Of a stretch of DNA of 64,000 nucleotides, positions 8,098-45,183 are shown piece by piece (the stretch's first letter is position 1; each line of letters begins with the position of its first letter). The translations under genes were made by a program, and so were the position numbers. The notes beneath the pieces are model-generated. The model was not told where the DNA came from, searched no databases, and was given only the letters and a program-made list of their open reading frames with translations. Location: positions 1 to 64,000 of the forward strand of contig NZ_QRQC01000007.1 in NCBI RefSeq assembly GCF_003475325.1, read 5' to 3'. This DNA is from Collinsella sp. AF33-16. Lineage in GTDB: Bacteria; Actinomycetota; Coriobacteriia; Coriobacteriales; Coriobacteriaceae.

Positions 8098-8222
8098 GGG
8101 AGGGACGGGGGCTTAGTTCCCCAATCGTCCTCGGGCATGCAAAAAGCCTCGCTGCGCACTTCGTGCGGCGAGGCTTTTTGCCCCCTGCGGAAAGATTGGG
8201 GAACTAAGCCCTCGTCCCTCCC
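8098..8222 (+). repeat. Class I long 3' hairpin, copy A (after fba)
   Basis: An outer stem of about 28 bp (8098-8125 with 8195-8222) and an inner stem AAAAGCCTCGC..GCGAGGCTTTT are joined by the fixed blocks CGTCCTCG (8126-8133) and CTGCGGA (8185-8191). The same blocks, with different stem sequences, occur at 35501, 39598 (minus strand) and 45055. It begins 34 bases after the fba stop. Function unknown; it may be a terminator or a structured 3' RNA. Confidence 0.75.
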
Positions 8223-8271
8223 AGGTTGACCTACTCGAGGTCGTCGCCCTTGTGGCGTTAGGGCGGAAAAT

Positions 8272-8326
8272 AATAAGAAGCCTTCGCGCTGCGGAATGAT
8301 TTTGGAAACTAAGTACGGGGACCCGC
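8272..8326 (+). repeat. Truncated class I element, right half
   Basis: AAGAAGCC then CTGCGGA (8289-8295) followed by an arm containing GGAAACTAAG, like the right halves of copies A and D. The left half is missing. Flanking direct repeats CGCCCTTGTGGNGTTNGGGC occur near 8235 and 8346. Confidence 0.5.
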
Positions 8327-8386
8327 CCAAGCCGTTCTGCTCAATCGCCCTTGTGGTGTTGGGGCTGAAAGGGTGGGACGCGTGGG

Positions 8387-9010
8387 TTATTTGGTTGTTA
8401 GGGTTAGTAGGTCGTTGGGGGTTTTGAGGTTGTAGGTGGCGTTTGGGATGTCTTGGTGTGATCCCCATGCCGCTCTGGCAAAACTGACCCCTGCCGAAGT
8501 TGCGCATTGTTCGTCGTAGACGGTGTCGCCAACGTAGACGACGTTGCCAGGATTCGCGCCCGTACGCCGGAGATATTCGAGCATGGGTGCGGGTGCGGGT
8601 TTATGTTCGGTTGTGTCTTCGACAAGGATGATGTGCTCAAAATACTTATCGAAACCAAGGGGTGCAATTTCTTTTGTGTATTCGTCGCGCGCACGTGAGG
8701 AGACGATGCCAAGTTTGCAGCCGCTATCGGCGAGTGTTGCGATGACTTCAAGCAAACCTGGAAACACGCTGATGGTGCTTTTAAAGCTGGCGGCAACTTG
8801 GCACCAGCGATCCAACGTTGCCTGCGAGTAGATTCCAAGTTTCTCAAGGGCATCCTTGCCGGGTATGCCGAGGGCAAATTCAAGCTCGTGTCGGGGGAGC
8901 GTTTTGCCGGTCTCTTCTTGGACAATCTGGACAAGCGATGATAGAACGCTTTCTTCTGTATCTGCCAATGTCCCATCAACGTCAAATACGATATGGTCAA
9001 AGTGCTTCAT
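8387..9010 (-). CDS. HAD-superfamily phosphatase, phosphoglycolate phosphatase-like
   Basis: A 207-residue soluble hydrolase. The HAD motif I is FDVDGTLAD at about residues 8-16 (nucleophile Asp and general acid Asp), motif II is IVSSR near 98, and motif III/IV is the lysine in EHKPAPAP with VGDTVYDEQCA near 158. A helical cap of the Gph/PgmB subfamily type lies between motifs I and II. The substrate is unknown; small sugar phosphates are typical. It is on the same strand as the AraC gene but separated by 56 bases. Confidence 0.88.
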   Translation of the reverse strand: MKHFDHIVFDVDGTLADTEESVLSSLVQIVQEETGKTLPRHELEFALGIPGKDALEKLGIYSQATLDRWCQVAASFKSTISVFPGLLEVIATLADSGCKLGIVSSRARDEYTKEIAPLGFDKYFEHIILVEDTTEHKPAPAPMLEYLRRTGANPGNVVYVGDTVYDEQCATSAGVSFARAAWGSHQDIPNATYNLKTPNDLLTLTTK

Positions 9011-9066
9011 ATGATTGCTCCTCTCTGTTGTTTGCCTGCAAGTTTGATGCGGTGACAGAAGAAAGG

Positions 9067-10005
9067 CTAGCGGGATTTCTGCCTGGTGCTATCGAGATTC
9101 TGCCTCGCTGCTCGATAGCTCGAAGGAGTGCATCCCATTTGTTCTTTAAATACCTGGCCAAGATGGCTTGCTGTCGCAAAGCCGCATTGGCGCGCGACTG
9201 TCTGGACCGTTCGCGTGGTGTGTGTCAAAAGTTCGCAAGCACGGTTTACGCGGTATGCGCGCAGATATGCCGCCGGGGTCGTTCCTGCGCAAGCTTCGAT
9301 AATGCGGTAACACTCTCTTTCGCTTACGCCGGCTGCAGATGCCATCTGGGGCACATCTATAGCGGCTGCATAGTTCGCGCGGATATAGTCCAGGATTGCC
9401 TTGAACTGTACGTCGCGGTTGGTCATCCAAGAGGCGTTGTCGGAGGAAAAGAGCGGTTCGGCCTTGGCGTAAATCTGAATCCAGAGCTCTGACAAGCTAT
9501 TCCGAAGCGCCATCTCGTTCTGCGGCCGTTGAAGGTCGTGGTTAAAGGAACTCTTTAGCAAATCGATAAAGGGCATATCGTCGGGGTTGGTGGGCGACCA
9601 TTTGAGCACATCGACGCCTCGACATTGCAGTAAAGGATTGATATAGCGCTTTTGAAGGCGTCCCGCGGGATCGCCGAGCATCGACGGCTGAAAGATATGC
9701 AACATTTGAATGGCTGGTGCCGAATTGGGTGATTGCAGCGTGCTGTGCAAAACGCCGCCGTTGATAAAGCCGGCGGACCCTTCCTCAAAGCGTACGTGCT
9801 CATGAGCCGCGCGCGTTCGATAGTCAATCGCTCCCTGCTCCATGTAGAAAAGCTCAACTTCGGAATGCCAGTGCCAGGGGACGGAATTGCCCGGATAGCG
9901 AGCGAATTCTGCGCGTTCGGCAATATAGGGCCAGTCATCGGCGGTCTCGGGAAACGCTTCCTCGCGTCCTCCGCGGTGCAATTCTATGTGATCCATGTTT
10001 CGCAT
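9067..10005 (-). CDS. AraC-family transcriptional regulator with N-terminal cupin
   Basis: A 312-residue regulator. The N-terminal half is a cupin sensor (PWHWHSEVELFYMEQGAIDY near residues 43-62); the C-terminal 100 residues are the two AraC helix-turn-helix motifs (DVPQMASAAGVSERECYRII and TVQTVARQCGFATASHLGQV). No clear ribosome binding site precedes either MRN at 10005 or MDH at 9996, so the start is uncertain. The target is unknown; neighbours do not suggest a pathway. Confidence 0.9.
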   Translation of the reverse strand: MRNMDHIELHRGGREEAFPETADDWPYIAERAEFARYPGNSVPWHWHSEVELFYMEQGAIDYRTRAAHEHVRFEEGSAGFINGGVLHSTLQSPNSAPAIQMLHIFQPSMLGDPAGRLQKRYINPLLQCRGVDVLKWSPTNPDDMPFIDLLKSSFNHDLQRPQNEMALRNSLSELWIQIYAKAEPLFSSDNASWMTNRDVQFKAILDYIRANYAAAIDVPQMASAAGVSERECYRIIEACAGTTPAAYLRAYRVNRACELLTHTTRTVQTVARQCGFATASHLGQVFKEQMGCTPSSYRAARQNLDSTRQKSR

Positions 10006-10030
10006 GGCATCAGTATAAAGCGCGATGGGC

Positions 10031-10240
10031 TTAGATTGCTCTTGCCTGTTCGGGGAACGCCTTGTTTAGGGATGCTTGGAGCTTTTCGAACGATGCTCGC
10101 AAGTTGAGGTTCTGGTCGGTTGAGCGTTTTGCTTTTGTGGTGGGGGAGTCGAGGAGGCCATTTCTCTGTGTCGGGGGGAAGGAGAAAAGGTCTGCATGTG
10201 TTAGGGATGGCTGCTGTGTTGCGTCATTGGAAGAATGCAT
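10031..10240 (-). CDS. Small hypothetical protein, possibly a remnant
   Basis: A 69-residue ORF beginning MHSSNDATQQPSLTHADLFS, with GAGGAGG twelve bases before the ATG. It is polar and mostly helical in character, with no domain I recognise. Upstream on the same strand an open frame from 10435 to a TAA at 10243-10245 has no ATG and ends HPVRNLLVDIEEAA, one base before the ATG region; the two may be pieces of a decayed operon. Local GC is lower than the surroundings. It could also be non-coding. Confidence 0.35.
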   Translation of the reverse strand: MHSSNDATQQPSLTHADLFSFPPTQRNGLLDSPTTKAKRSTDQNLNLRASFEKLQASLNKAFPEQARAI

Positions 10241-10493
10241 GCTTATGCGGCCTCCTCGATGTCCACCAAAAGGTTGCGCACAGGGTGTGCTGCTAGGTCC
10301 CGTGCGTTGGCAGTATTATGCAGCGGACCGTTCAAAGAAGCGCTAAAGAAAGGCTTAACCTGGTTTGGTGTTACGATGAAACCGCAGGTCAAGGCTATTG
10401 AGTAACACTCTTGAAAGGTTTTGGGCTTAAGGGCTTTCTAAGGTTTGTGACGTGGATGTGGCTCGCCTGTGTGGGGCGTGTGAATGCTCGCTG

Positions 10494-11480
10494 TTAGCGC
10501 TGCGGCTCTGCAGCCCGTACCTGCTCGATGACCTTTTCCATCGTGGCGTCGATGCGGTCTTTTTTGAGCTCGCATTCCCAGATGGTTATGGGTGTCCAGC
10601 CCATTTGAGTGAGTGCCGCCACGGCAGCGCGGTCGCGCTCGACGTTGCGACGGAACTTTGCCTCCCAAAAATCAACATTGCGCTTGGGCTGGCTCGGGTT
10701 GCACTTGGGGCAGCGGTGCCAAAAGCAGCCGTTGACGAAGATGGCGATCTTGCGCCCGGGAAAGGCGATGTCGGGCTTGCCGGGCACCTTCCATTCCAAA
10801 CGATAGCCCGTGAGGCCGGCGGCCCGTAGGCGCTGGCGAACGAGCAGCTCGGGCTTGGTGTTGGCGCGTTTGTTGCCCTTCATGGACTTTTTGATGGCGG
10901 CTCGACGGCGGACCAGTTCGCGCTCGTCAGCGGAGAGGTCCGAGGTATCGATGCCGTCCAGCAGGCCGGGCTTGGGGCGCTTTTTGCTGTGGCGCTTAGG
11001 CTTGCGCTTGGGTTTGGTAGCGGGCTCGTCGGCCGTGGTCTCGGTATCGTTGGCAGCGCCATTAGCCTCAAGCCGGTCTTCCTTCAGCTCAATCAGCGCA
11101 TCAATGAGCCCCTTGTCGGCGGGCATCCATTCCACCGTGGCAAGCGAGGTGCGCGGAATCCAGCGGATATCGAGCTGGCGGTCGTGCTTCTGGGGCTCAT
11201 CGGATTCATCAGCCAGCGAGCAGTAGTAACACTCCATTGAGAGATGAAAATCGGGGTAGTCATACTCAACGGTGTAGAAATCACGTAGGTTGGTGACCTT
11301 TACCTGTAGCTCTTCCATAAGCTCGCGGCGCACAGCGTCTTCGGGTGTTTCGCCGCGCATGAGCTTGCCACCTGGGAACTCCCACAGTCCCTGCATGTCG
11401 CCGTAGCCGCGCTGCACGGCAAGCAGCTCGTCAGATCCATCCTTGCGAATGATCCCAGCGGCAACATGAACAGTCTTCAA
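10494..11480 (-). CDS. Fusion of Nudix (MutT-like) hydrolase and Vsr mismatch endonuclease
   Basis: About 328 residues. The N-terminal 125 residues are a MutT-like Nudix domain with box GGKLMRGE..RRELMEEL near residues 37-58, expected to hydrolyse damaged nucleotides such as 8-oxo-dGTP. A basic linker (KPKRKPKRHSKKRPKP) follows. The last 130 residues are a very-short-patch-repair endonuclease: NTKPELLVRQRLRAAG, GKPDIAFPGRK (catalytic Asp), FVNGCFWHRCPKC (zinc ligands) and FRRNVERD. The start chosen is TTG at 11480 (MKTVHVAAGII), preceded by AGAGGACTCC; a GTG at 11498 is the other option. No Dcm-type cytosine methylase is nearby. Two repair activities on one chain is unusual. Confidence 0.88.
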   Translation of the reverse strand: MKTVHVAAGIIRKDGSDELLAVQRGYGDMQGLWEFPGGKLMRGETPEDAVRRELMEELQVKVTNLRDFYTVEYDYPDFHLSMECYYCSLADESDEPQKHDRQLDIRWIPRTSLATVEWMPADKGLIDALIELKEDRLEANGAANDTETTADEPATKPKRKPKRHSKKRPKPGLLDGIDTSDLSADERELVRRRAAIKKSMKGNKRANTKPELLVRQRLRAAGLTGYRLEWKVPGKPDIAFPGRKIAIFVNGCFWHRCPKCNPSQPKRNVDFWEAKFRRNVERDRAAVAALTQMGWTPITIWECELKKDRIDATMEKVIEQVRAAEPQR

Positions 11481-11624
11481 CAGGAGTCCTCTCTCCACAT
11501 CAACACATGGCAGGCTACCCTTACCTTACACAACGGTAAGGCAAGCGTAAGCCATATCGATGGTAGCCGACTCGGCTCCTTGCGACTATAGATGCCGTAG
11601 ACTAATCGCAAGAAAGGACTCGGT

Positions 11625-12410
11625 ATGCAAACCACCCAAATGGCGACCCCGGTACTGGAGGTCGCGCATCTCGAAAAGGTATATGGAGCGCTGGGCAACG
11701 TGACCCGCGCGCTCAACGACGTCAACTTTACCGCCAACCGCGGCGAATTCGTCGGCATCATGGGAGCCTCGGGCTCGGGCAAGTCGACGTTGCTCAACTG
11801 CGTGTCGACCATCGATAGCGCCACGAGTGGCACCATCCGCATCAACGGCCAGGACGTGACGCGCATGAAGCAGGCCAAGCTTTCGCAGTTCCGCCGCGAG
11901 GAGCTGGGCTTTATCTTCCAGGACTCCAACCTACTCGATACGCTCACGGCACGCGAGAACATCGCCCTGCCGCTCACCATCGCCCGCACAAACTCGGCAG
12001 AGATCTCGACCCGCGTGCAGGATGTAGCAGCGCGCCTGTCTATCAGTCAGGTGCTCGACAAGTATCCCTACCAAATGTCGGGCGGCCAGCAGCAGCGCGT
12101 TGCCGCGGCTCGCGCGCTCGTCACCGACCCCACCATGATCATGGCCGACGAGCCCACCGGCGCCCTCGATTCCAAGAGCGCTCGCCTGCTGCTCGAGAGC
12201 CTGGAGGCCCTTAACCGCCGCCTGCGCGCCACCGTGCTCATGGTTACGCACGACAGTTTTGCCGCCAGCTACACGAGCCGTGTGCTGTTTATTCGCGACG
12301 GCAAGATCTTTACCGAGCTGCGCCGCGGCGACACCGACCGCCGAGAGTTCTTCGACCGCATTATGGAGGTCGTTGCCATGATGGGCGGTGAGGGCTCCGA
12401 TGCTCTGTAA
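11625..12410 (+). CDS. ABC transporter ATP-binding protein, BceA/MacB type
   Basis: A 261-residue cytoplasmic ATPase. Walker A is GASGSGKST near residue 46, the signature is [14 protein letters not shown] near 147, and Walker B is [12 protein letters not shown] near 171. It belongs to the class that partners FtsX-like permeases for peptide-antibiotic resistance or lipoprotein/peptide export. The start ATG at 11625 follows AAAGGA. Its stop overlaps the permease start (ATG 12400, stop 12408-12410), so the two are translationally coupled. No two-component system lies next to it, as often found for true BceAB. Confidence 0.93.
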
Positions 12411-14637
12411 ACTCGCTTGGGGCAACGTCCGCCGCGCCGGCCGCGACTACCTCGTCTACCTTTTGACGCTCACCCTGGGCGTCACGGTCTTCTATGCCTT
12501 CAATACCGTCTCGATGCAGGTCGACATTGCCGGCATCGATGAAGAGGGCTTGGCACAGGTTATGGGCAGCATGCTCGGCTACCTGACGTACTTTTTGGCC
12601 GGTGTGATGGCCTTTTTGATGATGTATGCCAATAACTTCATCATGAAACGCCGCAAAAAGGAGTTTGGCCTGTACCAGGTGCTCGGCATGGGGCGCGGGC
12701 GCGTCGCCACGATCATGACGCTCGAGACCGTGATAGTATCGGTCGTGGCCTTTGTCGCCGGCATTGTGCTGGGTGTGGGACTCTCCCAGCTCATGACGTT
12801 CTTTACGGCCTCGCTCTTTAAGACACAGATTGCCAATTTCCACTTCTTTTTCTCGGTGCATGCGTTCAACCTGACCCTTGCCTGCATGCTCGTAATGTTT
12901 GTGCTCACACTGCTGCTGAACCTTCGCGCCGTGCGCCGCACCAAGCTCATCGAGCTTATGGGTGCCGAGCGTCGCAACGAGAGCATCAAGACGCGCAACC
13001 CCTGGATCGCGATTGCCATCTTTGTCGTGGGCGTGGTGCTGGTGGGCGTGGCCTATTACCGCCTGCTGCGCGACGGGTTCCCGCTAACTGCGACGGACAG
13101 CAAGCTGCAAGAGGCCATGAGCCAGTTTGGCATTACGACCGCTATGGTTACAGTGGGCACCTTTGCGCTGTTCTGGGGACTCTCGGGCATGCTTATCAAG
13201 CTGTTGCAGAGCCTGCGCAGCGTGTATTGGTGCGGCCTCAATATGTTTACCGTGCGTCAGCTTTCGGCCAAGGTCAATACGGTGTGCTTTTCGATGGGTG
13301 TCATCGCGATGATTCTGTTCCTTGCCATCACTTCGGTGACGTGCGGTATGTCGATCGCCAATGTGATGAACGAAAACCTGGAGCGCTATAACCCTGTTGA
13401 CGTGTCTCAGACGTATGTCTATTACACGCCCGAAACGCTCGATTACTACAAGGAGTATGTCAATCCGTCTGAGGCCGATCGCATGGTGCTGGCCGATGCA
13501 ACGGTCGATTTGTACGCTGCATGGCATGGCGATCGTAAAGATCCCGATAACGTTGCAGACGGTATTAAGGGCAAGTCGGCGGACAACAACGACGAGACCG
13601 GCAAGAAGGTCAATATCGCCGATGTTGCCGGTGAGCATGTGCAGATCGATTCGTATCTGAGCTACCCGCTTGGCGGCTCGGGCCCCTCGGTGGTGGCGGG
13701 TGAGATGTGCAAGGCCATGGGCGAAAAGCTTCCCAAGGCGCTCGAGGGAAGCAACGCCGATGATATGGGCCTGTTTGTGACGCCGGCGAGCCAGTACAAC
13801 AAACTGCGCCAGATGATGGGCGAGGAGCCGGTGAGCATTGGCCGCGACCAGTATCTGCTCACGTGTGATATGGGCGGCGAGTTGGTCGACATGTACACCA
13901 AGTATATGGCCGGCGGCCATGCCCTTACCTTGGGCGGGCATACGCTCAAGCCCGCAACCGATAAGTCGGACGAAGATACGGCGGCCATCGCCAACTCGGC
14001 GATGGGCAGTAATCCGGGTACCGTCGTCGTTGCCGACGAGCTGTTGTCCCAACTTAATCTGCAGCCGTATTCCAGTAGCCTGCTCGTTAACTACAAACAG
14101 GGGATGGATACGACCGAGGCAGACGAGAGCATTAAATACACTCTGCTCGACGATCTGCTCGTTGACGGCAAGAAGCCGGGGTCGTGGGGAACCTTCATCA
14201 CACGCTCCGAGATGTACACGCAAGCAGCGCAAATGAACGGTCTTATTAGCTACCTAGCCATCTACATCGGCTTTGTATTGGTCGTTGCATGCGCGGCGAT
14301 TCTGTCGATCCAGCAACTCTCCAACGTGGCCGATGGCAGCCGCAGCTATCGTGTGCTGGCACAGATCGGCTGCGACGACCGCCAGATTCGCCATTCGGTG
14401 ATGGCGCAGCAAGCGGTATTCTTCCTGTTCCCGCTGGCAGTGGGCCTAGCGCACTCCTTTGTGGCACTTAAGGTGATCATCGAGCTGGTGAGCATATTCG
14501 GAAATATGAGCATCGGCGGCACCGTGGGCCTCACCTGTGCGATCTTCCTGGCAGCCTATGGTGGCTACTTCCTGGTGACGTACCTCATGAGCGCCGGCAT
14601 GGTACAAGCTGCCATCGCCACCCGCTACAGCGAGTAA
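12400..14637 (+). CDS. FtsX-like ABC permease, BceB-like
   Basis: A 745-residue membrane protein. A first helix (YLVYLLTLTLGVTVFYAF, residues about 16-33) and a FtsX-type helix set near 55-170 and 205-320 precede a large extracellular domain of about 270 residues (about 330-600), then three C-terminal helices. This 10-helix layout with one big outer domain is that of BceB-type bacitracin/lantibiotic detoxification permeases. The start ATG at 12400 has GTGAGGG upstream; a GTG at 12388 is possible. The last 20 codons recur as a fragment at 22827-22886. A class II repeat follows the stop codon. Confidence 0.9.
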   Translation: MLCKLAWGNVRRAGRDYLVYLLTLTLGVTVFYAFNTVSMQVDIAGIDEEGLAQVMGSMLGYLTYFLAGVMAFLMMYANNFIMKRRKKEFGLYQVLGMGRGRVATIMTLETVIVSVVAFVAGIVLGVGLSQLMTFFTASLFKTQIANFHFFFSVHAFNLTLACMLVMFVLTLLLNLRAVRRTKLIELMGAERRNESIKTRNPWIAIAIFVVGVVLVGVAYYRLLRDGFPLTATDSKLQEAMSQFGITTAMVTVGTFALFWGLSGMLIKLLQSLRSVYWCGLNMFTVRQLSAKVNTVCFSMGVIAMILFLAITSVTCGMSIANVMNENLERYNPVDVSQTYVYYTPETLDYYKEYVNPSEADRMVLADATVDLYAAWHGDRKDPDNVADGIKGKSADNNDETGKKVNIADVAGEHVQIDSYLSYPLGGSGPSVVAGEMCKAMGEKLPKALEGSNADDMGLFVTPASQYNKLRQMMGEEPVSIGRDQYLLTCDMGGELVDMYTKYMAGGHALTLGGHTLKPATDKSDEDTAAIANSAMGSNPGTVVVADELLSQLNLQPYSSSLLVNYKQGMDTTEADESIKYTLLDDLLVDGKKPGSWGTFITRSEMYTQAAQMNGLISYLAIYIGFVLVVACAAILSIQQLSNVADGSRSYRVLAQIGCDDRQIRHSVMAQQAVFFLFPLAVGLAHSFVALKVIIELVSIFGNMSIGGTVGLTCAIFLAAYGGYFLVTYLMSAGMVQAAIATRYSE

Positions 14638-14674
14638 CCTGCCTAGCGAAAAGTAAAATCATCACAGGTTGAGC

Positions 14675-14824
14675 ATAAGTCAGCGAAAGCATCCCTAGGC
14701 GAGCAAGGTGACGTGAAAGAGGAGGGAAGCGTACTTCGGTACGCGACCGACGATTGAACGTCAGATTGCCGCCTAGGGGCGCTTGCAGCGTCGAGCCGTT
14801 ACGCGGTTTGGCAAAACCGCGTAA
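14675..14824 (-). repeat. Class II 3' element, copy 1 (after the membrane LuxR gene)
   Basis: Read on the minus strand it starts right after the LuxR stop with a hairpin TTACGCGGTTTT..AAACCGCGTAA, then CGACGCTGC, a stem pair CCTAGGCG/CGCCTAGG, an inner hairpin GCGTAC..GTACGC, the block CACCTTGCTCGCC and a tail TCGCTGACTT. The copy at 58961-59110 keeps these blocks while both stems have changed with pairing kept. Confidence 0.75.
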
Positions 14825-14826
14825 CC

Positions 14827-25448: not shown

Positions 25449-25465
25449 AATGACTACCCTGTTGG

Positions 25466-25724
25466 CCTTTTCCAGGCCCTGTGGGCAAAAAATGGCAAAT
25501 ATGAGTACTGTTGCTATCGTAGTGTCATATTGCCGGCATAAGATAATAGACATAACAGAAAATATGTTCATTAACCTTAACACATATAAGCCCGCTATAG
25601 AACTATTTGAGTAATTTAGGGGCGCTTGCAAGCCGTGCGGGCAGCATATGGGGCTGTTTTGGCTGTTACTAAAAAGGTAACAGTACTCATATTTGCCATT
25701 TTTTGCCCACAGGGGCTGGAAAGG
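25466..25724. mobile_element. MITE-like element with 36-bp perfect terminal inverted repeats
   Basis: Positions 25477-25512 and 25679-25714 are exact reverse complements of 36 bases (beginning CCCTGTGGGCAAAAAATGGC), and the match continues weakly outward (CTTTTCCAG/CTGGAAAGG). The interior of about 165 bases is AT-rich and has no ORF. This is the form of a non-autonomous transposon or a long RNA hairpin. Clear target-site duplications were not found. The 558-base gap between DAHP synthase and the ABC operon is made up almost wholly of such repeats. Confidence 0.6.
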
Positions 25725-25836
25725 ACCGTCAATTCGGCTCCAGGGGATGCGGCCCAAGGGCCGCAGAACGAAAAATGGGGGCGCTGGTTGTCCTGCGCCC
25801 CCATTCTTTGGGTATTGCGGTTGTTTGCCGCCGGTT

Positions 25837-35147: not shown

Positions 35148-35148
35148 C

Positions 35149-35173: not shown

Positions 35174-35232
35174 ACGATTACTGATTAGTGCGCCGGTTTC
35201 GGCCGGCGCCTATCGATCGAAGGAGACACATT

Positions 35233-35484
35233 ATGAAGGTTTCTGAAGTTTCCGAGACTCAGGCCGATAACCTGGTCCACATGCTCGACGCTTACGCCGA
35301 GAAGGGTGGCCACCACCTGAACATCAACGTCTTCAACCGTGAGACGCTGCTCGACGCTCAGGCTCACCCCGAGAAGTACCCGCAGCTGACCATTCGCGTT
35401 TCCGGCTACGCCGTGAACTTCCACACGCTCACCAAGGAGCAGCAGGACGAGGTCATTTCGCGTACCTTCCACAACAAGTTCTAA
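35233..35484 (+). CDS. grcA: Separate glycyl-radical domain protein of PFL (GrcA-like)
   Basis: An 83-residue protein equal to the C-terminal domain of PflB. It contains [35 protein letters not shown] with the radical Gly at residue 58, and [13 protein letters not shown] at the end. In E. coli a longer homologue (GrcA/YfiD) repairs oxygen-damaged PFL; here the main enzyme has no such domain, so this protein should be an obligatory subunit. ATG 35233 has GAAGGAGACAC upstream. It follows pflB, and the activating enzyme lies 1.5 kb further on. A class I hairpin follows its stop. Confidence 0.93.
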
Positions 35485-35500
35485 AGGGGTTTAACTCCCG

Positions 35501-35645
35501 CAGGATCGCCGGGGCTGTTTGGGCTACCTCCCAAAACGTCCTCGGACATGCAAGAAGCCCTCGCTGCGCACTTCGTGCGGCGAGGGCTTCTTGCGTCCTG
35601 CGGAATATTTTGGGAGGTAGCCCAAACAGCCCCGGCGGGGTCCTG
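35501..35645 (+). repeat. Class I long 3' hairpin, copy B (after grcA)
   Basis: Outer stem of about 30 bp (CAGGA..GGGCTACCTCCCAAAA with TTTTGGGAGGTAGCCC..TCCTG), fixed blocks CGTCCTCG (35537-35544) and CTGCGGA (35598-35604), inner stem AGAAGCCCTCGC..GCGAGGGCTTCT. It begins 17 bases past the grcA stop and reads the same way. The rest of the gap to 35916 contains GAGACGC/GCGTCTC and GCCGTTCTGC/GCAGGACGGC hairpins and no gene. Confidence 0.75.
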
Positions 35646-35916
35646 TGTAGTCACCCTTTAGGCGGAACTCTCCTAATGGGTTGAGCGTTCTGGATTCTTG
35701 CTTGCTACCGTTTATCGCGTATAGCTACCGTTTGCGGAATAAGTAACACTCCTTAATAAACCGTGTAGAATCTCAGATAAGCACGGAGTTTTCCAGGGAG
35801 ACGCTGTCCTTTGTTGTGTGCAAGGGGCGGCGTCTCTTTGGCGCTTGGAGGCCGTTCTGCAGCAGGACGGCGGACGTGCGTCACATATTCAAAAGCCAAC
35901 GTCGAGATGGGTTGTG

Positions 35917-37771: not shown

Positions 37772-37794
37772 CGATCTATTTTCGCCCCCAAGGG

Positions 37795-38042: not shown

Positions 38043-38120
38043 CGTGTTCGTTTGGCGAGGTCAAACAAAATGCTGGTACCATACCGTGGTTGAGAATTTC
38101 GTATAGGTTTGGGGAATGGT

Positions 38121-38861
38121 ATGGCTACCATCGCGATTATCGGTGCGCTCGAAAAAGAGATCATGCAGATTAAGGAAGAGCTGAGCGACGTTTGCGAGGC
38201 GCGGGAGGCAGGCTTGACCGTTGTGAGCGGTGAGCTCGACGGCCTGACAGTTGTCGCCACAACGGCGGGCATGGGCACGGTGAACGCCGCCGCTGCAACA
38301 CAGCACCTCATTAGCAAGTATGCTCCGCGGGCTGTTGTGTTTTCGGGCATTGCGGGTGGTTTGAACCCCAAGCTCCATATCGACGACGTGGTCATTGGCA
38401 AACGCCTGCGCTATCTGGATACCGATACCGCGCTTATTGCCGAGTCCGCACCGGGGCTCGAGGAGTTTGACTCGACGCCTGCACTGGTCGATATTGCCGC
38501 CGATGCGCTTGCTGAGCGTGGGTTTGTTGACGCTTCGACAAATGCAGTCGCTTCGAATGAGGGCACCAAGCAGTTCCTGGTCGGCACGATTGCCACGGGT
38601 AACCGCTTTGTGACGGGCGCCGCCATGCGCAACGACGCTATCGAGGCGACGCATGCCGATTGCGTCGGCATGGAGGGCGCGGCAATTGCCCATGTCGCAA
38701 CCAAAAATGGTGTCGATTGCCTGGTGTTGCGCGCTATCAGTGATAATTGTGACGAGGCGTACGATGCAATTTGCGAGCGCGAGTTCGATCTGTTCGAGTA
38801 CGCACGTGTCGCAAGTGACATCACGCTCGATATCGTCCGCCGCATTGCCGCTGCGCAATAG
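38121..38861 (+). CDS. mtnN: 5'-methylthioadenosine/S-adenosylhomocysteine nucleosidase
   Basis: Cleaves the adenine from MTA, SAH and 5'-deoxyadenosine. The 246 residues show IGALEKEIMQIKEEL at the start, GMGTVNAAAATQHLI near 49, VFSGIAGGLNP near 72, CVGMEGAAIAHVA (substrate Glu) near 174 and LVLRAISDNCDE (catalytic Asp) near 194. ATG 38121 follows TTTGGGGAATGGT. It would also clear the 5'-deoxyadenosine made by the radical SAM enzymes nearby. Confidence 0.93.
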   Translation: MATIAIIGALEKEIMQIKEELSDVCEAREAGLTVVSGELDGLTVVATTAGMGTVNAAAATQHLISKYAPRAVVFSGIAGGLNPKLHIDDVVIGKRLRYLDTDTALIAESAPGLEEFDSTPALVDIAADALAERGFVDASTNAVASNEGTKQFLVGTIATGNRFVTGAAMRNDAIEATHADCVGMEGAAIAHVATKNGVDCLVLRAISDNCDEAYDAICEREFDLFEYARVASDITLDIVRRIAAAQ

Positions 38862-38899
38862 CGCGTCTATTTGTAAGAACCTACGACCAAGGAGTGTCC

Positions 38900-39490
38900 A
38901 TGGCCGATTCCATTAACTACCAGCTTGCCAAGTTCGTCGCCAGCTACGGCAAGGTTTCGCAGATTCCCGAGTCCACCTGCCCCGAGGTGAGCTTTGTCGG
39001 CCGCTCCAACGTGGGCAAGTCGTCGATTATGAACAAGCTCTTTGGCCGCAAGAACCTGGTCAAGGTTTCCAGCACGCCGGGCAAGACGAGCAACATCAAC
39101 TTCTTTGAGGCCGACGACGTGCATTTCGTGGACCTGCCGGGTTACGGTTTCGCCCGTCGCTCCAAGGCCGAGCGCGACCGTTGGGCCGAGCTCATCGGCG
39201 ACTTCTTCGACTCCGAGCGCAGCTTTAACTTGGTCGTCTCGCTGGTGGACATTCGTCACGACCCCAGCAAGCTCGACCACGACATGATTGACTACCTACA
39301 GGGCAACGAGTTCAACTTTATCGTCTGCCTCACCAAAGCCGACAAGCTCAGCCGCACCCAGCAGGCCCGCCAGGCAGCAGCCATCAAAAAGCAGCTCAAC
39401 GTCCCGGCCGAGAATGTAATCATCACGAGCTCCCAGACCGGCACCGGCATCGACGAACTCAAAAAGCGCATCGCCGAGGCCTGCCTCTAG
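38900..39490 (+). CDS. engB: Ribosome-biogenesis GTP-binding protein EngB/YsxC
   Basis: A 196-residue GTPase of the TrmE-Era-EngA-EngB group needed for 50S subunit assembly. G1 is GRSNVGKSS near 33-41, G2 around STPGKTSNINFF, G3 DLPGYGFA near 77, G4 TKAD near 144, G5 near ITSSQTGTG. ATG 38900 follows AAGGAGTGTCC; a GTG two codons upstream is less likely. It stands 38 bases after mtnN and may be cotranscribed with it. Confidence 0.95.
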   Translation: MADSINYQLAKFVASYGKVSQIPESTCPEVSFVGRSNVGKSSIMNKLFGRKNLVKVSSTPGKTSNINFFEADDVHFVDLPGYGFARRSKAERDRWAELIGDFFDSERSFNLVVSLVDIRHDPSKLDHDMIDYLQGNEFNFIVCLTKADKLSRTQQARQAAAIKKQLNVPAENVIITSSQTGTGIDELKKRIAEACL

Positions 39491-39597
39491 TAAGGGCTCC
39501 AGCCTAGCAAGAGCCCCTACCAATAAAAGGCCATAATTTCAGCCCGGCGCCCCTTCAAAGCGTGGGTCCCTGTAGACATCGCTAGTCACGTTACCAT

Positions 39598-39727
39598 AGG
39601 GCCACCCAGGGGCATCCCCTTAAAAACATTCCGCAGCACGAGGCCCGCTTATCCGTAGCTCCGAAGGAGCAGGATAAGCGGGCCTCAAGTGCGAGGACGT
39701 TTTTAAGGGGATACCCTTGGGCGGCCC
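39598..39727 (-). repeat. Class I long 3' hairpin, copy C (after thrB)
   Basis: On the minus strand the fixed blocks CGTCCTCG (39692-39699) and CTGCGGA (39630-39636) lie between an outer stem (GGGTATCCCCTTAAAAA type) and an inner stem GAGGCCCGCTTATCC..GGATAAGCGGGCCTC. Outside it, a further 15-bp inverted repeat (39569-39583 with 39741-39755) runs into the thrB stop codon, extending the stem to the end of the gene. It reads in the thrB direction. Confidence 0.75.
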
Positions 39728-39748
39728 GAAGGGATTAACCAGCGATGT

Positions 39749-40630
39749 CTACAGGTACTCGATTTGAGCGCCCTCGGTGTCGCACGTCAGAATATGCGTC
39801 TCACACTTGGGGAACTGCTCACGCAGCTTGACCTGCAGGAACTTGGCTACGATGGTGTCGTCAGTCACGGCCATGAGGGTCGAGCCGGAGCCACTGATCC
39901 AGATGGTCTTGGCGCCGCCGTTAAGGCAGGTGTCGCGCACAGCGTTGTAGTCGGGAATCAGGCGACGGCGATACGGCTCTTGGATGCGGTCGTCATTGGC
40001 GGCGGCAATCAGGTCCAGATCGCCGGTCTCGAGACCGCGCGTCATGCCGGCGATGCGGCCCATCTGCCACACGGCGGTGGAGAGCGGAATCTCCTGCGGC
40101 ACGACCTTGCGCGCCTCGCTCGTATGTACCTCGTAGGGCGGAATCACGGTAATAAAACGCAAGCGATCGCTCACCTCGTAGCGCAGGCATTGGGGGAGCG
40201 AATCGGTCGGTGTAAAGGAGCAGACGGCGCCGCCAAGGATGGCGGGGGCGACGTTGTCGGGATGTCCCTCGACCTCGGTGGCGATGCGGACGAGCTCGGC
40301 GCGGTCGACGGTGTGGCCCGTCAGCGCGGCGGCTGCCATGATGCCCGCGACGACGCAGGTGGAGCTGGAACCCAGGCCGCGGGCGACGGGCACGTCGGTC
40401 TGGATGTCGATAGCGACGGGGAAGGCCGGCTCGCCCCAGGCGGCCAGAGCATCGACAAAGCTCACATAGACCAGGTTATTCTCGTTTTGGAACTCCTCGG
40501 GGCAGCCCGTGATGGTGAGCTTGTCGGCGCGCTCGAAGGTAAAGTGCGAGTAAAGGCTGACGGCCATGCCGAGGGTGTCGTAGCCGATGCCCAAGTTGGC
40601 GCTTGTTGCTGGGACGGTGATCTTGATCAT
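39749..40630 (-). CDS. thrB: Homoserine kinase
   Basis: Phosphorylates homoserine at the branch to threonine. The 293-residue GHMP kinase has PATSANLGIGYDTLG near 7-21, the ATP loop PVARGLGSSSTCVVAG near 81-96, and the C-terminal GAKTIWISGSGSTLMAV. ATG 40630 is preceded by AGGAGATTCCC. It is downstream of thrC on the same strand, 201 bases apart with a terminator and hairpin between, so the two may not always be cotranscribed. Confidence 0.95.
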   Translation of the reverse strand: MIKITVPATSANLGIGYDTLGMAVSLYSHFTFERADKLTITGCPEEFQNENNLVYVSFVDALAAWGEPAFPVAIDIQTDVPVARGLGSSSTCVVAGIMAAAALTGHTVDRAELVRIATEVEGHPDNVAPAILGGAVCSFTPTDSLPQCLRYEVSDRLRFITVIPPYEVHTSEARKVVPQEIPLSTAVWQMGRIAGMTRGLETGDLDLIAAANDDRIQEPYRRRLIPDYNAVRDTCLNGGAKTIWISGSGSTLMAVTDDTIVAKFLQVKLREQFPKCETHILTCDTEGAQIEYL

Positions 40631-40639
40631 GGGAATCTC

Positions 40640-40753
40640 CTGGGCGGTCTGCCTGTTTAGTTCGCTGCTCGGGCAGTCCTGGCTCGCTCGGAAAGCACAT
40701 TAAGTGCTTTCCGGCTCGTGCGGAACTCGCGACGAACTAAACAGGCAGACCCG
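40640..40753. repeat. Palindrome between thrC and thrB, possibly a divergent class I element
   Basis: GGTCTGCCTGTTTAGTTCG and CGAACTAAACAGGCAGACC form a 19-bp outer stem; GGAAAGCAC..GTGCTTTCC forms the inner one; between them GTCCTGG and TGCGGAA recall the class I blocks. Unlike copies A-D it does not read in the direction of the gene before it. Confidence 0.5.
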
Positions 40754-40785
40754 CATGTCAGCTCGTCATCATCCCGGTGGATTTC

Positions 40786-40818
40786 TGATAAAAGAAGGTG
40801 CGCCGGCTTTCGCCGGCG
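40786..40818 (-). terminator. Terminator after thrC
   Basis: GCGCCGGC and GCCGGCGC pair around GAAA on the minus strand, followed by ACCTTCTTTTATC. It lies 14 bases after the thrC stop. Confidence 0.8.
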
Positions 40819-40831
40819 CTTAATAAGGGGT

Positions 40832-42349
40832 TTAGTTGGTGCTCATTCGTTTTGCTGCAGACTCGACGTAACTGTCCATCTCATCGACGTCGCAGACGTC
40901 TTCGAAGCGGACGGGCTTGGACTCGAGCTCGGCGAGCTGTGCCGGGGCGACCGTGTTGGTGGCCTGCTCGAGCACACGCATAGCCTCAAAGTCGTCCTCG
41001 GGCACGTCGAGGCCCAGGGCATCGCAGCAGGCGCGCGGGAACTTGTAGGGGCTGGCGGTCGAAAGCAGCACGCGGGCCTTGGCGCCCTCGGCGGGGGTGA
41101 CTTTTTCAAAGACGTGATAGCCGCAGGCGGTGTGCGGGTCGATCACGTAGCCGTTTGCGTCCCAGCAGCTCTTGATGGCAGCGCGGACCTCGTCCTCGCT
41201 GGCCCAGCCGCAGCCAAAGACGCTCTGAATCTTTGCCAGCAGGTTGGCGGGAACTTCGTAGCGACCAGTCTGTGCCAGCTGCTCCATAAGGTCGGCAACA
41301 AGCTCGCAGTCGCCGTCGGACAGGAAGTAGAGCATGCGCTCCAGGTTGGAGCTGATGAGGATGTCCATCGACGGCGAGATGGTCGTGAAGAACGGACGGT
41401 TGCGGTCGTAGACGCCGGTGGTCAGGAAGTCGGCAAGCACGTTGTTCTTGTCGCTCGCGACGATGAGCTTGGCGACGGGCAGACCCATGCGCTTGGCATA
41501 GTAGCCGGCCAGGATATCGCCAAAGTTACCGGTCGGTACACAGAACTCTACGGCGTCGCCAGCCTCGATAGCGTCGGCGCGCAACAGCTGCGCATAGGCG
41601 GCAAAGTAGTAGACGACCTGCGGTACCAGACGGCCGACATTGATGGAGTTGGCGCTCGAAAGCACCGTGCCAGCGCCCTCCAGGCGCTCGGCAAGCTCCT
41701 TATCGGCAAAGATGCGCTTGACGGCGCTCTGGGCGTCGTCAAAGTTGCCGCGGATACCGCAGACGGCGACGTTGTCGCCCTCCTGCGTGGACATCTGCAG
41801 GTTCTGCACGCGGCTGACCTTGCCCTCGGGATAAAAGACGGTGATGCCCGTACCTGGAGCGTCGGCAAAACCGGCGAGTGCGGCCTTGCCGGTGTCGCCC
41901 GACGTGGCGGTGACGATCATGATGCGCTCGGCGCCGCCGTCCTTGGCGGAGGTGCGGGCCATGAGGCGGGGGAGCATCTGCAGGGCGACGTCCTTAAAGG
42001 CGCTCGTGGGGCCACCAAAGAGCTCCATCACATAGGTTTGAGGGACGTCGGTGCCCGGCGCTGTATCGAGTTTGACGAGCGGCGTAACCTCTTCGCTCGC
42101 GAACGTGCCGCGGTATGCCTCATTCACACAGGCCGAAATTTCTTCGGCTGTGTAATCATTCAGTAACATTCCCAACACATCTTGAGCGATTTCAAAGTAC
42201 GATTTATCTGCAAGCGAGCTGATATCGACCTGCTGGGTGCCGAGCTCGTCCGAGACAAACAAACCCCCGTCGGGAGCGATGCCGGTACGGATTGCCACCT
42301 TACTTGAGCACGATAAAGTGCGTCCTCGTGTACTATGATAAGTTCCCAT
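40832..42349 (-). CDS. thrC: Threonine synthase
   Basis: PLP enzyme that converts O-phosphohomoserine to threonine. The 505 residues fit the longer E. coli/yeast-type: YHSTRGRTLSCSSKVAIRTG at the start, FGGPTSAFKDVALQ with the PLP lysine near 117-130, ATSGDTGKAALAGF near 161, and NSINVGRLVPQ near 245. ATG 42349 follows CGAGGAGCAGTGTTAT; the open extension to 42394 is not family-like. It is divergent from lysC across about 100 bases, so one region controls both ends of the aspartate pathway. Confidence 0.95.
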   Translation of the reverse strand: MGTYHSTRGRTLSCSSKVAIRTGIAPDGGLFVSDELGTQQVDISSLADKSYFEIAQDVLGMLLNDYTAEEISACVNEAYRGTFASEEVTPLVKLDTAPGTDVPQTYVMELFGGPTSAFKDVALQMLPRLMARTSAKDGGAERIMIVTATSGDTGKAALAGFADAPGTGITVFYPEGKVSRVQNLQMSTQEGDNVAVCGIRGNFDDAQSAVKRIFADKELAERLEGAGTVLSSANSINVGRLVPQVVYYFAAYAQLLRADAIEAGDAVEFCVPTGNFGDILAGYYAKRMGLPVAKLIVASDKNNVLADFLTTGVYDRNRPFFTTISPSMDILISSNLERMLYFLSDGDCELVADLMEQLAQTGRYEVPANLLAKIQSVFGCGWASEDEVRAAIKSCWDANGYVIDPHTACGYHVFEKVTPAEGAKARVLLSTASPYKFPRACCDALGLDVPEDDFEAMRVLEQATNTVAPAQLAELESKPVRFEDVCDVDEMDSYVESAAKRMSTN

Positions 42350-42452
42350 ATAACACTGCTCCTCGGATGCCTTGGTCCCAATCGGTGAACCCATGGTATC
42401 AGAGCGCGCAAAACAGGTTTGCAGAGGCTTTTAGAAAGGTAACCTCCACGCC

Positions 42453-43841
42453 ATGATAAAAATTGCCAAGTTTGGCGGCTCGTCGGTCGCCGACGCCGAA
42501 CACTTTAAGAAGATCAAGGCCATCGTCGATGCCGACCCGGCCCGCCGTTTTGTGGTGGTTTCTGCCTGCGGTCGCCGCTTTAAGGGCGACACCAAGGTGA
42601 CCGACCTGCTCTACCTGGTTAACGCGCACGTTAAGTACCACGTGTCGTGCGAGGAGCTGCTCGAGGACATTGGGCAGCGCTATTTTGATATCGCTGACGA
42701 GCTGGAGCTCACCTATCCCATCCGCGAGGAGTTCGCGGCCTTTGCCGAGCGTGCCCGCTCGGGTGGCTACTCCACCGAGGAGCTCGTGAGCCGTGGCGAG
42801 TGCTTCACCGCTCGCCTGATGGCCGAGTACCTGGGCCTGCCGTTCCTGGACGCCGCGACGGTCGTTGCGTTCCATCACGACGGTACGCTCAGCATGAACC
42901 GCACCTCCGAGCTGGTGCAGGAGTACGGTCAGCAGGGTGGCTTTGTCATGCCCGGTTTCTACGGCGCGACGCGTGAGGGCCAGATCAAGCTGCTCGACCG
43001 TGGTGGCGGCGATATTTCCGGCTCGATTCTGGCTAAGTGCCTGGGCGCCGACCTTTACGAGAACTGGACCGACGTCTCGGGCTTCTACTCTGCCGACCCG
43101 CGCATCGTACCCGAGGCTCAGCCCATTGCGCGCGTTACCTACGAGGAGCTGCGCGAGCTTTCGTACATGGGTGCAAGCGTCCTGCACGAGGAGGCCGTGT
43201 TCCCCGTGCGCGAGGCCGGTATTCCGCTAGTCATCAAGAACACCAACGCGCCGCAGGACCCCGGCACCATCATTAGCGAGACGGCCGACGAGGGCGAGGC
43301 GGAGCCCATCATTACCGGCGTGACCGGCAAGCGCGGCTTTGTCGCCATCAACGTGGCCCGCGACCGCACCAAGCCCCGTGTCGGCTTTATGCGCCGCGCG
43401 CTTTCGGTCTTCGAGCGCTATGACGTCTCCGTCGAGCACATGCCCACCGGTGTCGACCGCTTTGGCGCCGTGGTGCAGGAGCAGGACGTGCACGATTCGC
43501 TGTACTCGCTCGTGGGCGACATTCAGCAGGAGGTCGAGCCGCTCGAGATCGAGGTTGTCGAGGGCCTGGCGCTTATCGCTACCGTTGGCCGCAACCTGCG
43601 CGGTCGCGCCGGCATCTCTGGCCACCTGTTTGGCATGCTTGGCCAGGCGGGCGTGAGCGTGCGTATGATTTCGCAGAGCTGCGACGAGATCAACATCATC
43701 ATCGGCGTGGAGGAGAAGGACTTCGATCTGGCGATCCAGACCATTTACCGTGCCTTCTCCGATGAAAACGGCATTGTGAAGGTCTCCGACCTGGAGGCTC
43801 CCGCGCCGGCCGATCCCATCCAGGCCGCGCTCAAAAAGTAG
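42453..43841 (+). CDS. lysC: Aspartate kinase
   Basis: First step of the aspartate pathway. The 462 residues have KFGGSSVADAEHF near 5-17, the kinase core with RGGGDISGSILAK near 188-200 and YSADPRIVP near 214, then two ACT regulatory domains (about 300-445: VGFMRRALSVFERYDVSVEH and GISGHLFGMLGQAGVSVRMI). It is the monofunctional, long type, not fused to homoserine dehydrogenase. ATG 42453 follows AGAAAGGTAACCTCC. It is followed by a terminator and asd. Feedback by lysine or threonine is expected from the ACT domains but cannot be assigned. Confidence 0.95.
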   Translation: MIKIAKFGGSSVADAEHFKKIKAIVDADPARRFVVVSACGRRFKGDTKVTDLLYLVNAHVKYHVSCEELLEDIGQRYFDIADELELTYPIREEFAAFAERARSGGYSTEELVSRGECFTARLMAEYLGLPFLDAATVVAFHHDGTLSMNRTSELVQEYGQQGGFVMPGFYGATREGQIKLLDRGGGDISGSILAKCLGADLYENWTDVSGFYSADPRIVPEAQPIARVTYEELRELSYMGASVLHEEAVFPVREAGIPLVIKNTNAPQDPGTIISETADEGEAEPIITGVTGKRGFVAINVARDRTKPRVGFMRRALSVFERYDVSVEHMPTGVDRFGAVVQEQDVHDSLYSLVGDIQQEVEPLEIEVVEGLALIATVGRNLRGRAGISGHLFGMLGQAGVSVRMISQSCDEINIIIGVEEKDFDLAIQTIYRAFSDENGIVKVSDLEAPAPADPIQAALKK

Positions 43842-43913
43842 CGACTGCTCGGTGGATTTTTGGGTCATGTCTCAAAAATCTACGGCGGGGCGTTTCGTTT
43901 CGGTTTCGTTTCG

Positions 43914-43946
43914 ACGGGGCGGATTTCGTGCCCGCCCCGTTCTTGT
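43914..43946 (+). terminator. Terminator after lysC
   Basis: ACGGGGCGG and CCGCCCCGT pair, followed by TCTTGTAT. It lies about 70 bases after lysC and 70 before asd. Confidence 0.7.
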
Positions 43947-44014
43947 ATACACTGGCAACAATAATCGGCCTGCTTGGCGTGCGGGCAAAAGCCATAACCT
44001 TTAAAGGGGGAAGC

Positions 44015-45040
44015 ATGAAACAGTACACGGTTGCTATTTTGGGCGCGACGGGAGCTGTGGGCACCCAGATGCTCGAGTGCCTCAACGAGCAGGAGTTTCC
44101 GGTCGGTAAGCTCAAGCTGCTGGCGAGCGCGCGCTCTGCGGGCAAGACCGTTGAGTTCCGCGGCGAGCAGATCGTGATCGAGGAAGCTTGCCCCGAGGCC
44201 TTTGAGGGCTGCGACATCGTGCTCGGCGCTGCCGGCGACGATATCGCCAAGGAGCTGCTGCCCGAGGCCGTCAAGCGCGGCGCCGTCGTGGTCGACAACA
44301 GTCACGCCTTCCGCATGGATCCCGAAGTGCCGCTGGTTGTGCCTGAGATCAATGCCGACGACATCAAGTGGCATCACGGCCTTATCGCCAACCCCAACTG
44401 CGCGACCATCATCGGCCTGGTTCCCACCTGGCCGCTGCATCAGCTCGCCGGCGTGAAGCGCATGATCGTCTCGACGTATCAGGCTGCTTCGGGTGCCGGC
44501 GCTCCCGGCATGGCCGAGCTCGAGGCTCAGCTGGCCGCCCTGGGCCGTGGCGAGGAGATTCCCGAGCCGCGCGCATTTGCCGCCCAGCTCGCGAGCAACC
44601 TGATTCCGCAGATTGGCGGCGTCAAGGAGGAGGGCTTTACCTCCGAGGAGATGAAGCTGCAAAACGAGGGTCGCAAGATTATGCATCTGCCCGAGCTGCG
44701 CGTGAACTGCACCTGCGTGCGCGTGCCCGTGCTGCGCTCGCACTCCGAGAGCATTACGCTCGAGTTCGAGCGTGACATCACGGTTGAGGAGGCTCGTGCT
44801 GCGCTGGCTGCCGCTCCCGGCGTCAAGCTGGTTGACGACATGAGCGCCGAGGATGCGCACGATCGCTTCCCCATGCCGATGGATACGTCCGACCAGGACC
44901 TGATCTGGGTCGGTCGTGTGCGTCGCGACATCTCGAACCCCGAGGCCGCGCGTGGCATCACCTTCTGGTGCTGCGGCGACCAAATCCGTAAGGGCGCGGC
45001 AACCAACGCCGTCCAGATCGCTAAGCTGCTCTGCGAGTAG
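44015..45040 (+). CDS. asd: Aspartate-semialdehyde dehydrogenase
   Basis: Reduces aspartyl phosphate to the semialdehyde with NADPH. The 341 residues show GATGAVGTQMLECL near 9-22, the active-site Cys in NPNCATI near 126-132, QAASGAGAPG near 154, and the substrate His in VPVLRSHSES near 240. ATG 44015 follows AAAGGGGGAAGC; the open extension to 43928 is not family-like. It lies after lysC, with which it forms the start of the threonine route, and is followed by class I hairpin D. Confidence 0.95.
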   Translation: MKQYTVAILGATGAVGTQMLECLNEQEFPVGKLKLLASARSAGKTVEFRGEQIVIEEACPEAFEGCDIVLGAAGDDIAKELLPEAVKRGAVVVDNSHAFRMDPEVPLVVPEINADDIKWHHGLIANPNCATIIGLVPTWPLHQLAGVKRMIVSTYQAASGAGAPGMAELEAQLAALGRGEEIPEPRAFAAQLASNLIPQIGGVKEEGFTSEEMKLQNEGRKIMHLPELRVNCTCVRVPVLRSHSESITLEFERDITVEEARAALAAAPGVKLVDDMSAEDAHDRFPMPMDTSDQDLIWVGRVRRDISNPEAARGITFWCCGDQIRKGAATNAVQIAKLLCE

Positions 45041-45054
45041 CGGTGGACCTGTCC

Positions 45055-45183
45055 GGCGGGGGCCGGGCTTAGTTTTCAGAACGTCCTCGACCATGTGTGG
45101 CGCCTTGTCCTGCTCCTTCGGAGCCGCGGACAAGGCGCCACACTGGTCTGCGGAGTGTTCTGAAAACTAAGCCCGGCCCCCGC
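45055..45183 (+). repeat. Class I long 3' hairpin, copy D (after asd)
   Basis: Outer stem GGCGGGGGCCGGGCTTAGTT with AACTAAGCCCGGCCCCCGCC, fixed blocks CGTCCTCG (45082-45089) and CTGCGGA (45148-45154), inner stem TGTGGCGCCTTGTCC..GGACAAGGCGCCACA. It begins 14 bases after the asd stop and reads the same way. Confidence 0.8.

Follow-up and report, generated by a model that had tools for sequence, protein, structure and literature searches.

A stretch of 64,000 nucleotides from Collinsella sp. AF33-16 (contig NZ_QRQC01000007.1), referred to here as the window, carries four copies of a long hairpin with an asymmetric core, each lying just behind the stop codon of a gene (fba, grcA, thrB and asd) and reading in the direction of that gene. 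This element is an RNA family of Coriobacteriales. The structured 3′ RNA put forward in the original prediction, which was made from the letters of the window, is supported by the sense position, the narrow range of distances to the stop codon, the presence of the core at the same genes across species and the covarying stems. We base the argument for function on the asymmetric core and its sense position. We propose that the element belongs to the 3′ untranslated region (3′-UTR) of mRNAs, where a factor acting in trans would recognise the core and set the 3′ end or the stability of the transcript, and we regard the chances for and against this proposal as about even.

The window was searched with the pattern CGTCCTCGN{45,75}CTGCGGA, the gap of 45–75 excluding the short form of the element described below. 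Exactly four matches were found, at 8126–8191 (+), 35537–35604 (+), 39630–39699 (-) and 45082–45154 (+), whereas there were none in 100 dinucleotide shuffles. Reading all four copies confirmed the positions originally given, and on the gene-sense strand each of them has CGTCCTCG and CTGCGGA. The blocks also run with the preceding gene, as had been claimed; the stop codons lie 15–34 nt ahead of the starts originally given to the hairpins, and NCBIfam matches identify the genes as fba, grcA3, thrB and asd. The features are as follows, with the minimum free energy (MFE, kcal/mol) and z-score of each predicted hairpin.

7057..8064, plus strand: host gene fba (class II ketose/fructose-bisphosphate aldolase; NCBIfam)
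8095..8225, plus strand: element after fba, with outer stem, core and inner stem-loop (MFE -125.8, z -12.8)
8126..8133, plus strand: left core block CGTCCTCG, fba copy
8185..8191, plus strand: right core block CTGCGGA, fba copy
35188..35484, plus strand: host gene grcA (glycyl radical cofactor GrcA3; NCBIfam)
35484..35659, plus strand: element after grcA, whole predicted hairpin (MFE -138.5, z -16.9)
35537..35544, plus strand: left core block, grcA copy
35598..35604, plus strand: right core block, grcA copy
39749..40630, minus strand: host gene thrB (homoserine kinase; NCBIfam)
39570..39754, minus strand: element after thrB, whole predicted hairpin, thrB stop codon in the basal stem (MFE -139, z -16.9)
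39692..39699, minus strand: left core block, thrB copy
39630..39636, minus strand: right core block, thrB copy
43928..45040, plus strand: host gene asd (aspartate-semialdehyde dehydrogenase; NCBIfam)
45038..45200, plus strand: element after asd, whole predicted hairpin, asd stop codon in the basal stem (MFE -133.2, z -15.9)
45082..45089, plus strand: left core block, asd copy
45148..45154, plus strand: right core block, asd copy

Folded as RNA, the window copies reach -125.8 to -139 kcal/mol, with z-scores of -12.8 to -16.9 (200 shuffles each), and the predicted basal stem takes in the stop codon of both thrB and asd. The outer and inner stems described originally are there, and the predicted pairing reaches further than was first drawn in three of the copies (thrB, asd and grcA). 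Similarly, the U/C mismatch that interrupts the pairing of the two fixed blocks was confirmed, and one bulged U has to be added to it.

Outermost in the element is a basal stem, which can be absent; inwards from it come a variable outer stem (about 25–28 bp), the core and a variable 3-bp helix. In the long form, this helix is followed by a 2-nt bulge, mostly AU, and then by an inner stem-loop; the letters immediately outside UCC/GGA vary. In the window, the helix between core and inner stem reads GAC/GUC, CAC/GUG and ACC/GGU, while that of the fba copy, GGC/CCC, pairs at two of its three positions; the bulge is AU, or UU in the thrB copy. In the short form, ACGUCCUCG faces CUGCGGAAUGU; the pairing is interrupted by the U/C mismatch, by a bulged U and, further out than these two in the consensus, by a bulged A. 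A few base pairs and a small loop lie above the core, and the outer stem often has an additional internal loop, AC/UUA. The short form is carried by more distant Collinsella, by other genera and by some loci of near genomes.

Position relative to genes was examined in 65 locus entries with a codon-based gene caller, orthologues of different species being counted separately. The nearest upstream gene was co-directional in 55 entries, opposite in 8 and absent in 2, and in 54 of the 55 co-directional entries (54/65 overall) its stop lay 24–63 nt ahead of the core. The remaining co-directional entry (L032, plus strand, stop at -1414) is a chance match inside a gene. Similarly, in 185 of 211 unique copies a same-strand open reading frame (ORF) of at least 80 aa ends 24–63 nt (median 45) ahead of the element, a count that leaves out loci L031–L209 except nine Collinsella ones. 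The 26 exceptions are nine copies of a locus upstream of a tRNA-Leu(gag) gene, eight copies of a locus beside a gene reading away (one of them at a contig edge and assigned by its stem), L020, L269 and L382 near the end of a sequence stretch, L404, the inverted copy L266, three copies in a genome outside the order and one chance match. When 250 redundant copies were considered, some of them unrelated chance matches, a sense ORF was found to stop 20–90 nt ahead of the core in 225. Beyond the core, on its far side, 35 copies have an antisense stop at the corresponding distance, and 32 of these also have a sense stop; the three antisense-only copies are two chance matches in unrelated contigs and one genuine asd copy with an inverted core. 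A constant sense position after a stop codon, as expected of a structured 3′-UTR RNA motif, was therefore observed, with exceptions.

Downstream genes begin 28–681 nt past the element (43/54 at 100–650 nt) and 23/55 are convergent, so that the elements tend to occupy the ends of transcription units. At the tRNA-Leu(gag) locus (L287, L029, L042, L343) a pair of elements, separated by about 310 bp, point towards each other in the interval from an oppF-like gene to the tRNA gene; one of them follows the oppF-like gene in sense and the other has no co-directional host.

Independent evidence on the core was obtained from loci that were located through their protein, without use of the pattern. Of 21 near genomes (thrB 99–100% identical), which by inference belong to the C. 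aerofaciens complex, 20 have the core after thrB, and in the other one the inside of the element is deleted. In nine more distant genomes (88–90% thrB identity), the core was found in six, two of which have one changed letter in the right block. After asd, the element is present in four of eight more distant genomes, with small changes in L267, L268 and L269 and in inverted form in L266; in the more distant genome L262 the asd stop was not found.

The stems of the element keep their pairing while their sequences differ. In 27 long-form stem clusters, the left arms of different loci are on average 40% identical, and over 24 positions each 93.8% pair, against 54.4% on average and 63.4% at most when the right arms are redealt among the loci. 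The copies were mostly found by the core pattern and a pairing filter on positions 1–16, so some of this pairing is there by construction; at positions 17–24, which lie outside the selection, 90.7% pair, compared with a mean of 44.2% and a maximum of 54.2% in 500 arm shuffles between loci. When no pairing filter was applied, at least 11 of the 16 outer positions were paired in 102/104 long and 52/54 short unique matches. At thrB, copies from seven other genomes have left arms 31–62% identical to that of the window copy, and six of them self-pair at 22–26 of 26 positions, the seventh (L232) at 13 in an ungapped register.

For 32 short forms, RNAalifold gave 27 pairs, 20 of them with two-sided change. 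In our own structure, 79.5% of the cells pair (68.5 ± 1.0 shuffled) and there are 132 two-sided changes (59.3 ± 5.7 shuffled), values that none of 500 shuffles reached. A control in which the structure was slid by -1 equals or exceeds the true register in two-sided cells (134 vs 132), further pair types (70 vs 66) and covariation score (0.358 vs 0.343), whereas it is lower in cells paired (59.4% vs 79.5%) and in pairs with two-sided change (20 vs 22). Bulge positions differ among the short-form copies. The covariation claimed originally thus exceeds the shuffles in short forms, in long forms and at positions 17–24, and compensatory changes above controls, likewise expected of a structured 3′-UTR RNA motif, were found, the slid structure scoring as high on some of the measures.

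Whole elements at one gene can differ between closely related genomes. At the thrB site of the 21 near genomes there are four element alleles, carried by 5, 5, 6 and 4 genomes, and the remaining genome has the third type without its inner part. Three of the four carriers of the fourth type (L216, L218, L220) have the 3′ half of a different-type element directly after it, an arrangement that looks like the replacement of another allele's 5′ half. After asd, one genome (L266) has the core inverted between intact arms. Two further asd loci drew attention: in L245 the left half of the element runs into unrelated DNA, as if the hairpin had been interrupted by an insertion, and L254 has runs of G and C within the element that are probably an artefact of assembling a strong hairpin.

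A total of 30 inner modules were distinguished in C. aerofaciens and near genomes, at 15 gene loci and at loci without a host ORF; eight of 137 module entries (M14, M17, M18, M20, M24–M27) were removed as chance matches in unrelated contigs. Eight modules are shared by at least two genes, and at 12 of the 15 genes different genomes have different modules, at least two per gene. One module of 53 nt is identical to the letter at grcA (window), ppc (L017, L297, L305, L339) and ilvE (L338), while the left arms of the outer stems around it are 31–50% identical among the three genes. The ends that modules share are the core blocks of 7–8 nt only. Judged from these sequences, the inner hairpin of C. 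aerofaciens is an exchangeable module, separable from the outer stem.

Several results weigh against a functional RNA. The invariance of the core in our alignment A3 is there by construction, the copies having been chosen by pattern. Three of the nine more distant genomes have no element after thrB. A co-directional gene immediately ahead of the element is lacking at L404 and at two C. aerofaciens loci (17 unique copies); these are exceptions to a direction that is non-random, as predicted, with a sense stop in 225 of the 250 copies and 54 of the 65 entries. G-U pairs make up only 3.5% of the standard pairs in long outer stems, which fits rewriting at the DNA level. A first count of G-U against A-C on the sense strand (92 vs 73) was confounded by conserved internal loops, and isolated mismatches in 85 stem clusters gave G-U 42 vs A-C 27 (p 0.09; inner stems 9 vs 5), both counts including unrelated chance matches. 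In a fixed register, the 27 long-form stems gave G-U 21 vs A-C 6, and 14 vs 4 at positions 17–28 only. We treat this strand asymmetry as a supporting, not a decisive, sign of selection on the sense strand. Finally, covariation as the sole proof of RNA function had to be rejected, since template switching can give covariation without selection on RNA.

Template switching during replication can homogenise arms, invert spacers or loops and produce multi-base compensation, as described in the consulted parts of PMC8794818 and PMC8604942, and the first of these excerpts adds that it perfects palindromes at the DNA level (PMC8794818). Because G-U pairs are few and one inverted core and one internal deletion were found, it seems probable that the stems are rewritten by DNA template switching and that pairing is partly kept at the DNA level. 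The original argument that a DNA repeat would have no reason to covary was thus too strong. Template switching does not explain why the core keeps its mismatch and bulges, in one orientation and at the same distance from the stop, and these features of the sequence point to selection on the transcribed strand.

Collinsella aerofaciens records carry the element, and at least nine element loci were seen in Collinsella records among the matches listed. The long-form pattern occurs in 24 of 43 Collinsella genomes, 22 of them with 4–14 matches and two with one, and its reversed control gave 0 matches in all 43. A few long-form matches are chance matches to coding sequence, namely the lone match of G037 (by look) and L004 and L008, which have no outer stem. 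The short-form pattern was found in 31/297 genomes of the order (10/107 genera) and its control pattern in none; at least L370 and L396 among its matches are due to chance. A model built from the 32 short forms only (R1) matches, at E ≤ 0.001, at least 73/246 class genomes and at least 24/110 genera, with a best score of 89 bits; 19 candidates were scored per genome in this search, so the counts are lower bounds. At E ≤ 1e-6, R1 matches 9/246 phylum genomes, eight of them of the same family. Despite its training on short forms it finds three of the four long window copies, the fba copy being missed. Just past the asd element, at 45266–45335 (+), there is also a weak R1 match (E 0.0078) that is GC-rich and has no complete core, perhaps a decayed copy of the element. 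Class matches outside the order are weaker (best 49 bits), but some of them (L455, L458) resemble the core in sequence and follow a sense stop, and the family may therefore extend past Coriobacteriales. Other detector matches outside the order, such as L040, L086 and L143, were judged to be chance. Viral contigs gave 59 pattern matches, and among the 11 that passed the energy filter none had a paired outer stem.

Host genes were named by their best NCBIfam matches, several of them on partial ORFs and below the curated cut-off. The names obtained were pyruvate:ferredoxin oxidoreductase, phosphate acetyltransferase, lactaldehyde reductase, PEP carboxylase, heavy-metal P-type ATPase, phosphofructokinase, oligopeptide transporter ATPase, lactate transporter LarD, branched-chain aminotransferase, groEL, class II aldolase, FGAM synthase, PRPP synthase, calcium-type ATPase, iron alcohol dehydrogenase and a flavorubredoxin-like protein, together with one host without a name and three without a good one. 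Carbon and fermentation genes are prominent in this plain list. In other genera, the short form with the same core is found on some of the same genes (groEL, fba), and groEL bears the element in family f1 (L360) and in two f5 genomes (L369, L446).

In the mechanism that we propose, the element would be transcribed together with the gene just ahead of it and would fold into a very stable hairpin whose base coincides with the stop codon or lies at most about 30 nt from it. The asymmetric core, in which ACGUCCUCG lies opposite CUGCGGAAUGU with the U/C mismatch, the bulged U and the bulged A, would then be recognised by a Coriobacteriales factor acting in trans. Transcription would end further downstream, and 3′ trimming or decay would halt at the bound hairpin, which would fix the mature 3′ end. 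We infer the transcription, the binding factor and the effect on 3′ end or half-life, the factor from core conservation.

An alternative is a terminator without a U-tract, that is, a hairpin, perhaps helped by a factor at the core, which stops RNA polymerase directly. The position just after the stop and mostly at the ends of transcription units would suit such a role, and no terminator-like site was found in a stretch of 600 bases around the grcA copy. However, a U-run (at least 6 T in 8 nt) follows the stem in 2 of 85 stem clusters, a few of which are chance matches, compared with 1 of 85 when shuffled, so the terminator named among the options of the original prediction is not supported in its canonical form with a U-tract. 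In addition, the terminator-like site in the fba copy (8159–8173) belongs to the inner stem, and the conserved core sits about 25–28 bp above the base of the outer stem, a height at which terminator hairpins are not known to act. A terminator of this kind seems unlikely to us.

We consider it quite unlikely that the element is a site of processing or decay by RNase III, in which the long duplex arms and the central asymmetric loop would guide cleavage and so control turnover. Genes for Rho and for RNase III were each found in 6/6 genomes examined, and in the long form two long stems do flank the internal loop. The short form, however, has only a small helix above the core, so that the inner duplex is dispensable, and the exact conservation of sequence goes beyond any known requirement of RNase III. 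Least probable is a DNA-level palindromic repeat, mobile or of the REP/BIME kind (see below), that inserts by preference behind stop codons and folds as RNA only incidentally: its many copies, the stems rewritten as units, the identical inner modules at several genes, the thrB replacement alleles with remnants of an earlier element, the inverted asd core and the few G-U pairs in long stems would fit, but the single direction relative to the gene with few exceptions, the narrow stop distance, the occupation of groEL in two families, the core that stays asymmetric and the excess of G-U over A-C on the sense strand do not.

If the element is a 3′-UTR mark shared by Coriobacteriales and read by a dedicated RNA-binding factor, it might determine, for central carbon and fermentation genes as a group, where their mRNAs end and how long these last, and so form a 3′-end regulon, with nested mobile modules in C. 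aerofaciens; we offer this wider reading tentatively, as possible but doubtful. Were it true, the inner hairpin modules of C. aerofaciens would pass from the hairpin of one gene to that of another and leave the outer stems behind. A multi-copy sense-strand 3′-UTR RNA with a strongly conserved core in common gut bacteria of a single order would imply a factor that recognises mRNA 3′ ends, for which the core RNA could serve as bait in a pull-down. The element family also documents how a long hairpin can be altered in sequence and still keep its pairing, with four alleles at one gene among near genomes, an inversion and a deletion, and through it the template-switch account of RNA stem evolution becomes testable in bacteria.

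The window contains further inverted sequences. A second hairpin family consists of inverted pairs of GTTGCGGTGATAT, each spanning 65 nt, at 52460–52524, 53697–53761 and 61123–61187; with at most two mismatches, GTTGCGGTGATAT has 8 matches in the window compared with 1.3 expected, and six of the eight lie in those three pairs. At 25464–25727, inverted arms of 60 nt are 87% complementary, with 144 nt between them.

Compared with described families at the Rfam gathering score, the window gave no family and 20 loci gave tRNA only, and the element accordingly matched none. Using a lax threshold on the fba copy only, we obtained 10 matches, all below gathering, and read them as long-hairpin artefacts; four of the 10, including the best (43 bits vs 196), are eukaryotic microRNA precursors. 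The Collinsella-1 RNA (RF01700) is a motif reported from the same genus, but its matches above cut-off, in 3/7 genomes, lie elsewhere, none of them at the listed element copies. Repetitive extragenic palindromic sequences and bacterial interspersed mosaic elements (REP/BIME) are multi-copy intergenic hairpins near gene 3′ ends, and REPs can protect the upstream mRNA. Their palindromes are independent of the direction in which the neighbouring gene reads, whereas the direction of the Collinsella element is nearly fixed (225/250 with a sense stop, one genuine antisense-only copy), its core lies inside a much longer stem and the stem sequence is not conserved between loci. Integron attC sites likewise lie behind stop codons and fold with a direction, and their stems are variable and contain bulged bases; the likeness is to attC as generally described, and the Collinsella element differs in being dispersed among housekeeping genes.

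In our literature searches, no title or abstract opening described the element, the tables of PMC8040213 lying outside what was checked, and a search on 3′-end trimming gave no papers. The excerpts seen of that paper predict 3161 candidate RNAs, 250 of them palindromic (PMC8040213), and the element may be listed among these candidates without annotation. The L17 downstream element (Weinberg 2010) is described in the consulted part of PMC2864571 as an RNA motif in potential 3′ UTRs, often without a gene immediately downstream, that follows ribosomal protein L17 genes, whereas the Collinsella element follows many unrelated metabolic genes, has 4–14 copies in most carrier genomes of the genus and has a long variable stem. 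The RNA hairpins maintained by template switching, as far as they are presented in the portion of PMC8794818 used here, are similar in their multi-base compensatory events and loop inversions; those are RNA genes, including rRNA, whereas the present case is a 3′-UTR family with exchangeable inner modules. Set beside these systems, the element is a structured 3′-UTR RNA that is unusual in its copy number, in the turnover of its stems and in its nested exchangeable modules.

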